Source of the DNA: Bacillota bacterium
GTDB taxonomy: Bacteria; Bacillota; UBA4882; UBA8346
Direction of reading: 5' to 3'
DNA length: 49,487 nucleotides
NCBI GenBank assembly: GCA_012735315.1
Contig: JAAYHS010000029.1
Span: 1-49,487 of the forward strand
This document shows, piece by piece, positions 2,754 to 8,289 of this stretch; within the stretch, counting starts at the first letter, position 1, and every line of letters starts with the position of its first letter. The notes under the pieces were generated by a model. It made no database searches. It had not been told where the DNA came from and saw only the letters and a program-made list of their open reading frames with translations. The translations under genes and the position numbers were made by a program.

Positions 2754-2799
2754 ACAACCCCCGGCGGCCTTCAAATTCAAAGGCAATACCGGGGGTTGT
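2754..2799 (-). terminator. Hairpin at the end of the minus-strand kinase operon
   Basis: Arms 2754-2764 and 2789-2799 are perfect 11-bp inverted repeats (ACAACCCCCGG and its complement). Read on the minus strand the stem is followed by a short TTTT run within GCGTTTTAC. It touches the stop codon of the kinase gene at 2799-2801. It lies between convergent genes, so it could also serve the lyase gene. Confidence 0.65.
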
Positions 2800-3830
2800 T
2801 AAATTATCCTGTTCCAAACGCCGCGGGTAAACTCTTTTAAAAAATTCTCCCGTTCCAAGCGGGCGTTTATTTTACTCTCCAATTTTTTGATGAATCTTTC
2901 CTTCGGCCAGGGCAACTTTTCGTGATAATATTGCAAGCCTATCTGCCAAAAATCATGAGGCCAAATGAACAAAATTCGCATTACTTCAATCTCCGCCTCG
3001 GTGAGCGGCAATACCTGTTGGTATTCTTTGAGGATAAAGCGGCAGACTGCCGGATCCCAGCGCGAGTGTTTCAGATTCCTGACGATCAAATTGATTAAAT
3101 CATGAATTCTCAAATCCAACAGCGAATAATCGAAATCAACCAGAATCAACCGGTTGTCGAAAGTCCGGAGCAGGTTTCTTCCCGAATAATCGTGATGGCA
3201 AAAACTCCTCGCGGCCGCGGCGGCGGTCGCCACTTCATAATAAGGAGAATTTAGCAGCGCTTGATAAGCGGCTTCCGCCTGACGGCGGTAAAAGTCATGA
3301 TGTGACAAGTAAAGCCGGCTAAAGGCCGAGCCACCGGCTTCAGCAAGGGCTTTCGCCCGGAAATCGTCTAATTGCCGGAGACGCAAGGCCATCTTTGCCG
3401 GCCAATCCAACCAAGCCGTCCGGGAAGGGATTATCGTTTTTGGTGAAAAGCCCTCGCTATAATGGTGGAATTCGGCCAGGAAACGGGCGGCTTGTTTTAG
3501 ATCCATAAAAATCCCGAAATCCACCTCCCGGCTGAAAACCCAATCGGTTAAAATATAGAGTTCGTCTTGGTAGGCGGCGAAGGGAAACCCTTGCCTGCTC
3601 ACGGCCAGCCGGAGAATACCCGGGAATGAACGGGCGTGAAGATATTCCAACGCTTCAAAGATGAACTGCAACTCAATCGGGGATAATTTCGACTTTTTCA
3701 CATATTGATAACCGGTGTTGGTTTCAACCCGCCAAATCTTCCGGATTGGTTGAATACTTCTAAGTTCCAAGCCAAAAAGACTTAAAACCGCTCTAATTTT
3801 ATCCCGGACCGGAACCGGCGTCTCGGACAT
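2799..3830 (-). CDS. CotS-family spore coat kinase-like protein (copy A)
   Basis: A 343-residue protein of the aminoglycoside-phosphotransferase/choline-kinase fold, of the CotS/CotI/YutH type. Visible motifs: a likely beta3 lysine in QYVKKSK (near 45), the catalytic loop HHDYSGRN (Asp and the Asn five residues on, near 215) and the metal-binding DFD in LVDFDYS. A basic, aromatic C-terminal segment follows (WPHDFWQIGLQYY), shared in form with the three neighbouring paralogs. Family knowledge: CotS-type proteins are made in the mother cell and sit in the spore coat; the phospho-acceptor is mostly unknown. It is the last gene of a minus-strand group of three and starts 13 bp after the stop of copy B. 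The ATG has only a weak Shine-Dalgarno, suggesting coupled translation. Confidence 0.82.
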   Translation of the reverse strand: MSETPVPVRDKIRAVLSLFGLELRSIQPIRKIWRVETNTGYQYVKKSKLSPIELQFIFEALEYLHARSFPGILRLAVSRQGFPFAAYQDELYILTDWVFSREVDFGIFMDLKQAARFLAEFHHYSEGFSPKTIIPSRTAWLDWPAKMALRLRQLDDFRAKALAEAGGSAFSRLYLSHHDFYRRQAEAAYQALLNSPYYEVATAAAAARSFCHHDYSGRNLLRTFDNRLILVDFDYSLLDLRIHDLINLIVRNLKHSRWDPAVCRFILKEYQQVLPLTEAEIEVMRILFIWPHDFWQIGLQYYHEKLPWPKERFIKKLESKINARLERENFLKEFTRGVWNRII

Positions 3831-3843
3831 CCCTTTTCAACCC

Positions 3844-4857
3844 CTAATCGGCCTGATAACTGTCGAATAAAAGCGGAAATTGGTAAACCGCCGTTTTATT
3901 TTGGAGATATTTTTGGAGCTTCCGGAGCAGACGGTCGGGGGTGTATTGGGCATGGCGATGAAAGTAACGGGTTGAAATCCGCCAAAATTTTTGAGGGAAA
4001 TAAAAAACCGCTTTGATCACGCCCAGTTCGTCAAAGGAGATCGGGTTGACTTCCCGGTAAGCATCAATGATTAGGCGCGCCACCGGATATGACCATTGAT
4101 ATTTTTTCATAACCCGGCGGATGAATTTGACCAGGTCCATAATGGGCAAATCAATCCGGCAACTGTCGAAATCAATCATTAAGATCCGCGAATCCGGAGT
4201 AAGGATAAAGTTGCGGGCGGCCGGATCGCCGTAACAGAAAGGGCGTTCGATTACGGCTTTGGATACCAGGAGGGGGTAGTTGCTGTTTTGCAATCTGATA
4301 ATTGCTTGGGCGGCCATATTGATAAAATAAGCGCAGTTTTCCAGATAAATCCTGGCAAAGGCGTCATCGGGCGATTTCAGAGCGGCTTGTTGGAAAGTTA
4401 GTAAATCCCGGTAACGTTCTTGGAAATGAACCAGGCATTTTCCCAGTTGTTTCCGGGTGTGGGAATGGGGCGGCGGAACGAACCCGAACGAACAGCGGTG
4501 AAGTTCGGCCAAAACGCGGCTGGCTTCGCGAAGTTCCCATTGATTGGCGAAGTTACATTGGCGGCCTTCGATCCAGTCGAAAAGCGTGTAGGCGTATTGA
4601 CCGTCGCTAATATAGGTCTCGCCATTCAAAGTAGGGATTAGCGGATTCATTTTGGTGAAGCCTTGTTTGATTAAATGTTGAATCGCCTGATGGACAAAGA
4701 TTAAACGGCGCGGTTTTAACGGGGAGACTTTCAAGTTTTTTACGCCTTGATCGGTATCCACTTTGAAGACATCCTTAATCTTCTCCCAGCTATTCGCCTC
4801 GATAGCCCAATTGGCGAGGATCTTTTTTACATCCGGTTGGTACCCCTTGAGCATCAT
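3844..4857 (-). CDS. CotS-family spore coat kinase-like protein (copy B)
   Basis: A 337-residue kinase-fold protein, second in the minus-strand trio. Key residues: GVKNLKVS (likely beta3 Lys), catalytic loop FCYGDPAARN and metal-binding MIDFDS. The C-terminal part has the shared FYFPQKFWRIS pattern found in all four copies. A strong AGGAGG (4861-4866, complement) lies 3 nt before the ATG at 4857 and 6 nt before a second in-frame ATG at 4854, which may be the real start. A palindromic repeat (4898-4960) lies directly upstream, between this gene and copy C. A spore-coat or mother-cell role is inferred from the family; the substrate is unknown. Confidence 0.82.
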   Translation of the reverse strand: MMLKGYQPDVKKILANWAIEANSWEKIKDVFKVDTDQGVKNLKVSPLKPRRLIFVHQAIQHLIKQGFTKMNPLIPTLNGETYISDGQYAYTLFDWIEGRQCNFANQWELREASRVLAELHRCSFGFVPPPHSHTRKQLGKCLVHFQERYRDLLTFQQAALKSPDDAFARIYLENCAYFINMAAQAIIRLQNSNYPLLVSKAVIERPFCYGDPAARNFILTPDSRILMIDFDSCRIDLPIMDLVKFIRRVMKKYQWSYPVARLIIDAYREVNPISFDELGVIKAVFYFPQKFWRISTRYFHRHAQYTPDRLLRKLQKYLQNKTAVYQFPLLFDSYQAD

Positions 4858-4897
4858 TTTCCTCCTAAAGTAGTAGTGGTGGGAAATTAGTTTTTAA

Positions 4898-4960
4898 CTC
4901 TGCGTCTCTGCGTCTCTGTGGCTAAATCATTATTGGCCACAGAGACACGGAGACACGGAG
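4898..4960. repeat. Palindromic intergenic element, copy 1
   Basis: Arms 4898-4922 and 4936-4960 (25 bp each, about 12-bp loop) are imperfect inverted repeats built from a GTCTCTG-like heptad (complement CAGAGAC); the mismatches are mostly G-U compatible. Copy 2 at 5988-6051 is nearly identical, including loop and flanks. This CACAGAGACAC-type palindrome resembles intergenic repeats known from many unrelated bacterial genomes. Confidence 0.9.
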
Positions 4961-4979
4961 AAATTCTTTTCCAGAAAAC

Positions 4980-5972
4980 TTACGGCTTTCTGAAATCCGG
5001 CAGCCGCGGTAAGATTGATCTCAGAAAAATAAAGCGCCGCCGCTCGGCGTCGATGTTTTTCCAAAGCTTAACCGCGAACCGCCGCTCGCTCCATTTCAGC
5101 TTTTCCTCAAAACGCTGACTGCAAATTCTCCAAAACTGGCTGGGGAAACAAAGGAGATAAGGTAAAACCGCGCTTTCCCATTCCGATATGTTTCTGACTT
5201 GGCGGTAGGCCTCCACTACCAATTCGAATAGCGAGCGTTCCCAGTCATTGGCTTGCAGAACCCGCGCGGCCAGTTTAGCCAATTCCGCCACCAACAGATC
5301 GGGACCGGACAACTCGAAGTCAATCAAAAAATACTGTCCGTTCTCAATTATGATATTACGGGGAGCGGGATCATTGTGACAAAATCCGATCAAACCGTTG
5401 GGGTTCGAACCAGGATCGGCATGGGAAAGGCCGGCCAGGGAATAATGGGCTTGATTCAGAAAATACTCATTCCAGCGGAGCAGCGCCCGGTCGATCCGGT
5501 TTAGACAGCGATTATTTTTTAACCGGGATGGTAAATTTTCCAAAAAAATGGCCCATTGGTGTAAGACCGTGATCAAGCCGGGGCTTTTCAAATCCTCGGG
5601 CGTGATCATCGATAAGGAGAAGCGGTGCAAATCAGCGAACAGGCGAGCGATTCGGGCAACGGAATCCCGGTCGGTAAAAGCGGGGTGCTCGCCATGACGC
5701 CACTTAAACAATTGATAATATTGATCCTTATATTCGAAATAAGGTAAATTGCAGCGGGAGATTTCCGGGAGGATCAATGATTTAAACCCGGCCTGCTCGA
5801 TCCGGGATAAAATCCGGTAGTTGCGGAGTAATTTTTCGGCGGGGCCGCCTGCTTTCTTAAGCGCATAATCACCCTTTTCCGAACTCACCCGCCAGATCGG
5901 CCCGAACGGTTTGAACCCGCGCGCCCGGATACCATAAGCTTGATTTAGTTTAAGTAGCAAATCGGTTATCAT
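4980..5972 (-). CDS. CotS-family spore coat kinase-like protein (copy C)
   Basis: A 330-residue kinase-fold protein, first of the minus-strand trio. Motifs: YALKKAGG (likely beta3 Lys near 38), catalytic loop HNDPAPRN, and LIDFELSGPD, where the second acidic residue of the usual DFD is Glu. The C-terminal FPSQFWRICSQRF pattern matches the paralogs. The ATG at 5972 has only a weak Shine-Dalgarno-like GGTGA. Palindrome copy 2 lies 15 bp upstream of the start, so the promoter must be inside or beyond it. The gene diverges from the small membrane protein gene at 6181. The CotS assignment rests on fold motifs and the sporulation-rich context; the phosphate acceptor is unknown. Confidence 0.8.
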   Translation of the reverse strand: MITDLLLKLNQAYGIRARGFKPFGPIWRVSSEKGDYALKKAGGPAEKLLRNYRILSRIEQAGFKSLILPEISRCNLPYFEYKDQYYQLFKWRHGEHPAFTDRDSVARIARLFADLHRFSLSMITPEDLKSPGLITVLHQWAIFLENLPSRLKNNRCLNRIDRALLRWNEYFLNQAHYSLAGLSHADPGSNPNGLIGFCHNDPAPRNIIIENGQYFLIDFELSGPDLLVAELAKLAARVLQANDWERSLFELVVEAYRQVRNISEWESAVLPYLLCFPSQFWRICSQRFEEKLKWSERRFAVKLWKNIDAERRRFIFLRSILPRLPDFRKP

Positions 5973-5987
5973 GATTCACCGGTTCAA

Positions 5988-6051
5988 CTCTGTGTCTCTG
6001 CGTCTCCGTGGCTAAAATCGTTATTGGCCACAGAGACACGGAGGCACAGAG
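5988..6051. repeat. Palindromic intergenic element, copy 2
   Basis: Arms 5988-6012 and 6027-6051 with the loop at 6013-6026; nearly the same sequence as the element at 4898-4960, with a few substitutions that tend to keep pairing. It lies in the divergent space between kinase copy C and the small membrane protein. Confidence 0.9.
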
Positions 6052-6180
6052 AAATCATTTTTTAGCAGTTCTGCGGGGAACCCGCGGCGAACAGAATCTG
6101 TCCGGAAAGGATGCTCTTTAAAGAAATGCGGTTCCCATCCCCGGGCTAAATGAATACCATATAGCCGGAGGTGTTTTTGG

Positions 6181-6348
6181 ATGTCGAACCCATTTAAGCA
6201 TATTAAAGCGATCGAACAAAAAATACTGTTATGCGTCATCGCTTTGGAACTTCTTAAAACCCTCGTTTTCCCGAACCCAATCGATGTTTTAATCTTAATC
6301 GGGTTGATCATCATCTTCTTTTGCTGGTATGGTCATGGGTGGTATTGA
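6181..6348 (+). CDS. Small membrane protein of 55 residues, unknown function
   Basis: Not recognised as a known family. The ATG at 6181 is preceded by an excellent CGGAGGTG (6166-6173) with 7-nt spacing. The polar start MSNPFKHIKAIEQK is followed by a hydrophobic stretch (ILLCVIALELLKTLVF), a PNP turn and a second strongly hydrophobic segment (VLILIGLIIIFFCWY), so one or two membrane segments are likely. The stop overlaps the start of kinase copy D by 20 bp, which has no Shine-Dalgarno of its own, so the two are probably translationally coupled. The partnership suggests a membrane anchor or partner for the kinase; this is inference. Confidence 0.7.
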   Translation: MSNPFKHIKAIEQKILLCVIALELLKTLVFPNPIDVLILIGLIIIFFCWYGHGWY

Positions 6349-7312
6349 GGCGGTTGAAAAAAGGCATCCGGAATTCCTCTACGGATTGGAAAACGGTCGG
6401 CGCAAGTCGAAAGGAGCCAAGGTTTGTTATCTTGAAGGAACGGACGGTATAAAAGTCGTTAAACAATTGAATATCGGCGCCAAACAAGCCAAATTCATCG
6501 GAGAATTGCTTACTTATTTAAACGGTTCCGGTTTGACCCCGGAATTGCTTCGTCCCGAGTCGGGGGCGGCCTATTTTTGGTTTAAAGGCGGTCGTTATTT
6601 TGTAACCCGCTATTTGCCGGGACGGCCGGCAGAATATTATCAACTCCAAGATTTACAGGCGGCAATCCGGTCAATGGCGCGCTTGCACCGGCTTTCCGAA
6701 GATTTTTTGGCGGCGTATCCGCGCTGGCGTCTTTCGCTAAAATTCGAACCGGTTCAGGTTTGGCAAAGTCGCCTTCGTGAACTGGAAATCTGCCGGGAGC
6801 GGGCGATTCGGTTTCGTCAAAACAGCTGGTGTCGGCAGTATTTGCGGTTTTGGTATTTTTTTTGGTTGCAAGCCCTAAAAGCCGTTGAGGAACTGCGGTC
6901 CTTACCCGCGCGAAGACCGGCGGTGATCTGTTACCACGACTGGGCTTTTCATAATCTGATTATCAATAACGGCGACGCGGCTTTAATCGATTTTGATTAC
7001 GCGCTGGTCGACGATGCGGTCCACGATCGCGCCAATTTAATCGGCCGTTATTTGCGGCTGCATCAATGGTCAAACGAGGCTTTGCTTAAAGCGCTCTGGA
7101 ATTTTGATCGGATTTATCCGTGGCGTGCGGGAGATCTGCGGCGCTTAAGGATCTACTTAACTTTTCCTTATGAATACTGGATCTTGGGACGGCAGTTTTT
7201 TTTGGAACGGCAACCTTGGTCCGAGAAATATTTCCAGGATCAATGGAAGCGTAAAATAGCCGATATCGAAGGACGAAATCAAACACTGGAATTAATCGAA
7301 TCTCTTGAATGA
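6329..7312 (+). CDS. CotS-family spore coat kinase-like protein (copy D)
   Basis: A 327-residue kinase-fold protein on the plus strand, divergent from copies A-C. Motifs: GIKVVKQLN (likely beta3 Lys), catalytic loop YHDWAFHN and metal-binding LIDFDYALVDD, plus the shared FPYEYWILGRQFF C-terminal pattern. The ATG at 6329 (or the in-frame ATG at 6335) lies inside the end of the 55-residue membrane protein gene, which supports coupling. The PHP-domain gene follows immediately. Function is inferred from CotS/CotI relatives; the acceptor is unknown. Confidence 0.8.
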   Translation: MVMGGIEAVEKRHPEFLYGLENGRRKSKGAKVCYLEGTDGIKVVKQLNIGAKQAKFIGELLTYLNGSGLTPELLRPESGAAYFWFKGGRYFVTRYLPGRPAEYYQLQDLQAAIRSMARLHRLSEDFLAAYPRWRLSLKFEPVQVWQSRLRELEICRERAIRFRQNSWCRQYLRFWYFFWLQALKAVEELRSLPARRPAVICYHDWAFHNLIINNGDAALIDFDYALVDDAVHDRANLIGRYLRLHQWSNEALLKALWNFDRIYPWRAGDLRRLRIYLTFPYEYWILGRQFFLERQPWSEKYFQDQWKRKIADIEGRNQTLELIESLE

Positions 7313-7320
7313 GGACCTGG

Positions 7321-8217
7321 ATGTTGAATCTGAGAACCGGAATTAACTTCAAAAAATCTTATCAAAACGGGCGCTGGATTACGGCGGATCTACATATTCA
7401 CAGTATTTATTCGGATGGCGGTTTCACTCCGGGTCAAATTTTGAAATATGCGGCGCATCATTTTTTAGACGTGGTGGCGATTGCGGATCACTCCGCGACC
7501 GAAGGGGGCTTGGAAGCCAAATCCCTGGGGAAAGGAAAACCGGAATTGCCGCTCGCCATCATGGCTCAGGAAGTTTCGGCCGGCGACCGCTTTCACTTTC
7601 TGTTGCTTAATTGCGGCGAACCCCAATCCGACTTCAACCGTGATAACCTCGGGGACCGTTTGGCAGAGCACCGTCGACAGGGCGGAGTTACAGTGTTGGC
7701 GCATCCCTGGACTATGCCTAAAGCCAAATGGGCGCGGAGTTGCCTTCGGGATTTAATCGCCGCCGATCTGATCGACGGGTTCGAGCTGTTTAATTCGGCG
7801 TCGCTGAATATTCCGGATATCTCCGAAGTTTGGCGGAGATTATGGGAAGAATGGATCGCGCCTTATAAGTTGGGGGTGTTTGGGGGTTCGGACTTTCATC
7901 ATTTGCGCAAAGGCCGGTATATTGGGACCGGGCGTACCTACCTTAAGGTTTTCGCCCCCGGCGAAGCGGGGATTATCGACGCGTTACGGGCCAGACGCTG
8001 CGTGGCGGGGTTGTTCGGTCATCAACGGCCCGCCGAACTCCAAAGCGATGCCGGTTTAATATGGGGCCGGGAACCATGGCTGTCCGAATTACAGTGGTTG
8101 CGCGATAGTCTTCAGCAAAAAATGACGGAATTAAACAGATTTGCTCCGGCCTACCGGAAACTGTTCGTCAATTTATTTGAAGCGGGCCATTATCAGTTGT
8201 TGGCTGATCTTTTTTAG
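7321..8217 (+). CDS. PHP-domain metal-dependent phosphoesterase
   Basis: About 298 residues. The PHP signature is visible: DLHIHSIYSDGG (HxH and Asp), AIADHS, the acidic AQEVS, LAHPW and GGSDFHH, which supply the usual metal ligands. The family hydrolyses phosphate esters; the substrate cannot be read from the sequence. The C-terminal 80 or so residues (after FAPGEAGIIDALRARR) are less typical. An in-frame ATG at 7309 overlaps the kinase stop (ATGA), but GAGGA at 7311-7315 sits 5 nt before the ATG at 7321, which is preferred. Close linkage to kinase copy D raises the possibility of an opposing phosphorylation/dephosphorylation pair. Confidence 0.85.
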   Translation: MLNLRTGINFKKSYQNGRWITADLHIHSIYSDGGFTPGQILKYAAHHFLDVVAIADHSATEGGLEAKSLGKGKPELPLAIMAQEVSAGDRFHFLLLNCGEPQSDFNRDNLGDRLAEHRRQGGVTVLAHPWTMPKAKWARSCLRDLIAADLIDGFELFNSASLNIPDISEVWRRLWEEWIAPYKLGVFGGSDFHHLRKGRYIGTGRTYLKVFAPGEAGIIDALRARRCVAGLFGHQRPAELQSDAGLIWGREPWLSELQWLRDSLQQKMTELNRFAPAYRKLFVNLFEAGHYQLLADLF

Positions 8218-8254
8218 CCCGGCGGCTCATGATAATCGAACCCGGATCTCATGG

Positions 8255-8289
8255 AAAGTCGGTTTGTGAAAGACCGGCTTTTTATTTTT
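8255..8289 (+). terminator. Rho-independent terminator after the PHP gene
   Basis: Stem AAAGTCGGT (8255-8263) pairs with ACCGGCTTT (8273-8281) with one G-U pair, followed by a T-rich tail to 8289. Confidence 0.85.

Follow-up and report, generated by a model that had tools for sequence, protein, structure and literature searches.

The window, a stretch of 49,487 nucleotides covering positions 1 to 49,487 of contig JAAYHS010000029.1 of a Bacillota bacterium, carries two divergent gene units just upstream of mraZ, with three kinase genes (K1-K2-K3) on the minus strand and a membrane microprotein gene (TM), a fourth kinase gene (K4) and a PHP-type hydrolase gene on the plus strand (Table 1). A first-pass annotation had described the region from 2799 to 8217 as a cluster of four CotS-like kinases with a membrane microprotein and a PHP phosphoesterase, and all six open reading frames were found where it had placed them. 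Its claim that neighbouring plus-strand genes overlap or touch also held, as TM and K4 share 20 nt and K4 and PHP share 4 nt. Elsewhere in the window, positions 4-2655 encode a large protein which, by sequence reading alone, appears rhamnogalacturonan lyase-like and has repeated ricin-like carbohydrate-binding segments. No RNA families or tRNAs were found in the window. The genome to which the window belongs contains spoIVA (758 bits for the SpoIVA match), as do most of its relatives, and the organism is therefore probably a spore former.

Table 1. Genes and sequence features of the kinase and microprotein cluster and the evidence for each.
Feature	Position	Strand	Evidence
K1, CotS-family kinase, 343 aa	2799..3830	-	TIGR02906 264.7 bits, above cut-off; own orthologous clade; intact catalytic motifs
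K2, CotS-family kinase, 337 aa	3844..4857	-	TIGR02906 279.2 bits, above cut-off; YtaA 2q83 E 9.2e-28; own clade
K3, diverged CotS-like kinase, 330 aa	4980..5972	-	TIGR02906 125.2 bits, under cut-off; own clade; intact catalytic motifs
Conserved block upstream of TM, GTTCCC-N15-GAATACCAT	6131..6160	+	in most f1 relatives
TM, 55-residue two-helix membrane microprotein	6181..6348	+	family alignments A1/A2; hairpin model; codon changes
K4, diverged CotS-like kinase, 327 aa, overlaps TM	6329..7312	+	TIGR02906 128.6 bits, under cut-off
PHP/CehA-type metallohydrolase, 302 aa	7309..8217	+	NF038032 89.5 bits, above cut-off 80
Terminator-like hairpin between PHP and mraZ	8251..8285	+	15-pair stem, T tail; weak, such sites being about as frequent in shuffles

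Membership of the CotS family was judged with the NCBIfam model TIGR02906, which has a curated cut-off of 172.7 bits. Because K3 and K4 score under this value they are called CotS-like only. All four proteins pass the Pfam APH model, CotS is the best NCBIfam family for each, and all four lie far under the cut-offs of the YsxE, YutH and CotI equivalogs (TIGR02904, TIGR02905 and NF053880). The best match to a solved structure is the YtaA/CotI kinase, found with K2. The catalytic HxD/GxD...N and DFD/DFE motifs are present in 4/4 kinases and in nearly all of their orthologues, so that the kinases appear to be catalytically intact, as the first-pass annotation had held. That annotation had also proposed a tree of the four copies. 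In the maximum-likelihood tree built here, K1, K2, K3 and K4 each form a separate, well-supported clade that contains a single member from each genome, and K4 groups with the TM-coupled kinases of relatives, including that of G017, a genome from another family of the class. Copies from G017 are found in the K2 and K4 clades, and another lies near K1. Recent tandem duplication of the kinases is ruled out by the four-clade tree, by which K1 to K4 are an old set of four different kinases, each an ancient orthologous group.

The window genome carries additional CotS-type genes on two other contigs, both missed by the first-pass annotation. A second spore-kinase locus (L056, contig C133, 3000-11958) contains a pair of CotS-type genes, for proteins of 495 and 344 aa, close to genes that read as a CotSA-like glycosyltransferase, a HAD-type protein and a GHMP-kinase-like protein, these names being given by sequence reading, and a kinase pair resembling this one occurs in most f1 genomes. 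At L057 (contig C15, 42000-57296) one more CotS-family gene, which scores over the cut-off, lies amid many glycosyltransferase-like genes and an APH-type kinase gene.

The codons of TM differ between the window and a genus mate by 26 silent and 8 replacement changes, and because these changes are mostly silent the gene appears to be under purifying selection. Throughout the family a Pro-Asn/Thr..Asp turn is kept between two hydrophobic stretches, and a single-chain AlphaFold2 model predicts helices at residues 4-29 and 33-53 with a mean pLDDT of 88.7. Members of the microprotein family are defined as matches to the profile of alignment A2 that have the P-N/T..D turn between hydrophobic helices; TM of the window has both features and is a seed member of that profile, from which distant members were reached stepwise. 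No model in Pfam or NCBIfam covers the family, and the matches of TM to Pfam DUF2512 and DUF485 are weak (14.2 and 15.6 bits versus gathering cut-offs of 26.5 and 28). Both the topology of TM and any contact between TM and a kinase are predictions from sequence and from this single-chain model. The first-pass annotation was right that a membrane microprotein is present but underrated its weight; of all parts of the cluster, TM has the widest distribution and is the most novel.

Conservation of the cluster was checked by searching 61 genomes with the CotS model, retrieving the loci and matching them to the window proteins. The search for a conserved neighbourhood, which the first-pass annotation had put forward together with the doubt that the arrangement might be peculiar to this genome, shows that it recurs. 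K1-K2-K3 is kept divergent from TM-K4 in G001, G002, G003, G004, G006 and G007, G008 and G009 show the same layout on contigs that are shorter or split, and in G005 the contig ends inside K3; the layout is thus kept in every genome of the same family whose contigs permit checking. G017 has it as well, at lower similarity. The overlap of TM and K4 is kept in 7/7 genomes checked (11-29 nt). The block lies upstream of mraZ wherever contigs are long enough, with pnp on its other side in G002, G005 and G017.

The PHP gene is less constant. It follows K4 in G001, G003, G006 and G007, is absent from that place in G002 and G004, and in G017 gave weak matches only. Because of the two absences we regard it as a frequent but dispensable extra and not as part of the core. 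The match of the protein to the CehA/McbA model NF038032 spans residues 22-233 only, and metal-ligand-like motifs are kept in its orthologues; a scan of genome contigs with the PHP protein as query found no relative. The weak terminator-like hairpin that separates PHP from mraZ suggests that the gene is linked to the kinases rather than to the division cluster. To this extent it speaks against the concern, raised with the original description, that PHP might belong to a separate operon.

In counts that are partly post hoc, because the patterns were chosen after some of the sequences had been seen, the kinase strand between the divergent units carries CATANNNTA in 8/10 genomes (a mean of 0.48 and a maximum of 3 in shuffles), preceded by AC-N15-17 in 6/10 (shuffle mean 0.05). 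The full motif AC-N15-17-CATANNNTA lies upstream of the Bacillus-group TM at 33/49 non-redundant loci, against a mean of 0.32 in shuffles and 4 matches on the opposite strand, and upstream of TM in only 5/25 other, diverse Bacilli. This motif resembles the promoters used by sigma-K, the consensus letters of which are AC and CATANNNTA. The -35 and -10 elements of sigma-K promoters lie approximately 15 bp apart (PMC517825). The window itself lacks the sigma-K-like motif on its kinase strand. Two copies of a palindromic repeat, at 4900-4962 and 5985-6051, bracket K3 (4 half-site matches versus 0.16 expected) and had been missed by the first-pass annotation; the second copy lies upstream of K3, at the place where relatives carry the sigma-K-like motif. 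Upstream of TM, GTTCCC and GAATACCAT-like blocks are held at a fixed 15-nt spacing in f1 genomes. The window block matched none of the sporulation consensus sequences considered, and a genome-wide search for it as a regulon signature gave one exact copy only, that of the window, so that no sigma factor was assigned to it.

TM was found in 26/29 genomes of the class, with one copy each, in 30/398 genomes of a phylum sample searched with the stepwise profile, and in 104/200 genomes of a Bacilli class, always as a single copy. SpoIVA is present in 104/104 of the TM-bearing Bacilli genomes and in 43/96 of the others (Fisher p 3.6e-22, with kinship ignored). In the samples searched, TM is essentially restricted to spore-forming bacteria, mostly beside spore-coat genes. 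When named genomes were scanned with a profile of the Bacillus type, 268 relatives were found, of which 80, ranked by similarity, were kept; these include Bacillus tequilensis, B. atrophaeus, B. pumilus and Geobacillus.

At these named loci, which are close kin chosen by similarity ranking and so not independent of one another, a YsxE-type kinase gene lies downstream of TM and convergent with it in 80/80 of the best-ranked cases, within 400 bp in 70/80 and at 1.5-3 kb in the other ten, and SpoVID is encoded beyond the YsxE-type kinase in 75/80. An evenly drawn sample of Bacilli gave a kinase gene at most 3 kb from TM in 58/76 TM genomes with a listed kinase match and SpoVID at most 6 kb away in 59/62 genomes with a listed SpoVID. 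By the models used, one or the other was found near TM in 64/104 Bacilli TM genomes; inspection of further TM loci where the models failed showed SpoVID-like or kinase genes adjoining in many, not all. Outside the Bacilli, TM is found near CotS-type kinases in G103, G171, G150, G165, G062 and G054, in unrelated gene contexts, and at the TM locus of G348 no CotS-type kinase was seen on inspection. TM overlaps a spore kinase gene in the window, and in the majority of other genomes, though not in every one, a spore kinase or SpoVID gene lies close to it. The recurrence of this linkage in different settings argues against mere hitchhiking. Adjacency of TM and a kinase is no proof of interaction.

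The first-pass annotation had read the cluster as a small phosphorylation module for a spore or envelope glycan or protein. The idea of a conserved, spore-associated module is supported by the neighbourhood, SpoIVA, the spore kinases and the sigma-K-like promoter of relatives, and what has to be given up is PHP as a core part. That kinases and phosphoesterase act on one substrate, and that this cluster has a glycan substrate, are conjectures. We consider it probable that the cluster is a mother-cell sporulation module in which the two-helix TM helps to place either spore kinases or proteins of the coat base at the forespore surface. Two divergent transcripts, expressed during sporulation in the mother cell, would yield the four anciently diverged kinases of the CotS/YtaA/YsxE superfamily, and the plus-strand transcript would couple translation of TM to that of K4 and often also of PHP. 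TM, folded into a helical hairpin, would sit in the outer forespore membrane, the one that faces the cytosol of the mother cell, and would help to bring K4 to the spore surface or keep it there; perhaps it does so too for K1-K3 or further proteins of the coat base. At this site the kinases may phosphorylate some component of the coat, be it a small molecule, a glycan or a protein, and PHP, where present, may hydrolyse a related phosphate ester as an optional addition. The computed basis consists of the conserved layout, the kinase family, the restriction of TM, within the Bacilli sample, to genomes with SpoIVA, its recurrent linkage to spore kinases and the sigma-K-like motifs; from these we infer sporulation expression in the window organism, the membrane location, recruitment, the substrates and the anchoring step. 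We put forward more tentatively, as a possibility, that TM is an undescribed ancestral component of endospore morphogenesis in the Bacillota, a mother-cell-side two-helix anchor that organises spore kinases and the coat-base layer and a second short membrane anchor besides SpoVM.

A serious rival is that TM acts independently at the coat base, together with a SpoIVA/SpoVID-type scaffold or the forespore membrane, and has the kinases as frequent neighbours or clients and not as partners. In family f2 of the same class, in which most genomes are without CotS genes, TM stays in place as pnp-TM-mraZ and the kinase block is absent. TM of family f91 (L181, L182, L201-L204) lies beside a short SpoVID-like protein with no kinase between them, which suggests that the kinase was lost at the spoVID locus. 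Conversely, 18/71 Bacilli with a strong YsxE-type match have this kinase and no TM match, and ten such loci, when searched again at low stringency with a richer profile, gave no convincing homologue. The pairing of TM with kinases is thus not obligate. Against a role for TM alone stand its repeated linkage to spore kinases in unrelated contexts and the overlap of the TM and K4 reading frames in every genome checked, and on balance we think such a role rather unlikely.

It is unlikely, in our judgement, that the cluster is chiefly a glycan-phosphorylation module, an explanation close to the idea of the first-pass annotation, in which K1-K4 and PHP would add and remove phosphate on a coat or envelope polysaccharide precursor while TM had a transport or membrane-enzyme role. 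CAK kinases do act on small molecules, and bacterial spore kinases (BSKs) cluster elsewhere with glycosyltransferase and sugar-nucleotide genes (PMC2860764), as spore kinase genes do at C133 of the window genome and in L051, L053 and L054; the conserved block, however, is without a glycosyltransferase or sugar gene, and PHP can be missing from it. That the genes serve vegetative envelope growth together with the division and cell-wall cluster from mraZ onwards would suit their conserved position in the class and the lack of a sigma-K-like motif in the window, but is very unlikely given the terminator-like hairpin before mraZ, the sigma-K-like promoters in relatives and in Bacillus, and the presence of TM only in SpoIVA-bearing Bacilli, at spoVID-ysxE and not at mraZ.

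If TM does position kinases or coat-base proteins, a gene beside spore kinases in close relatives of B. subtilis offers a genetic handle on how these proteins reach the forespore surface, and a largely overlooked part of spore building may become testable. The putative B. subtilis gene at the place of TM, between valS and ysxE, is probably yszA and may well be annotated already. A search of the open-access literature found no publication on TM and, for yszA, unrelated papers only; the link between the microprotein and spore kinases appears to be new. Ever since 2009, when the family was defined, the substrates and placement of spore kinases have been an open question (PMC2860764), and one member, ysxE, is required for efficient sporulation in B. 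anthracis (PMC12700454).

Kinase clustering as such is already known. The first-pass annotation knew CotS, CotI and YutH as single coat proteins only, a view that does not stand, because multi-kinase spore clusters beside glycosyltransferases have been known since 2009 in Clostridium and Bacillus, for example cotS/ytaA with cotSA and ytcC in Bacillus and a BSKC1/2/6 operon with BSKC4 nearby in Clostridium (PMC2860764). Those clusters resemble the one described here in bringing together several diverged spore kinases, in the kinase fold and in their distribution among spore formers. They differ in containing glycosyltransferase and sugar-nucleotide genes, whereas the window cluster has a membrane microprotein and PHP and lies beside mraZ, and several BSKs are predicted pseudokinases, whereas the four kinases of the window look intact in their motifs. 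PHP resembles the CehA/McbA metallohydrolases in its score and in its metal-ligand-like motifs; it differs in sitting among spore kinases, and the match covers part of the protein. SpoVM, a very short anchor of SpoIVA and a single amphipathic helix, is like TM a tiny protein of sporulation with the outer forespore membrane as its proposed site of action. SpoVM has fewer than 30 residues (PMC3533761), whereas members of the TM family are two-helix hairpins of 50-65 residues. A further parallel to the window cluster is the spoVID-ysxE locus of the Bacilli, where a CotS/YsxE-type kinase occurs with a TM homologue that, in the Bacillus group, usually has a sigma-K-like promoter; there, however, TM is convergent with the kinase and not in one operon with it, one or two kinases are present instead of four, and SpoVID is encoded as well. 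Both ysxE and spoVID have been listed as Bacilli genes without clostridial counterparts (PMC3533761), and TM ties their locus to multi-kinase clusters in a distant class of the Bacillota.
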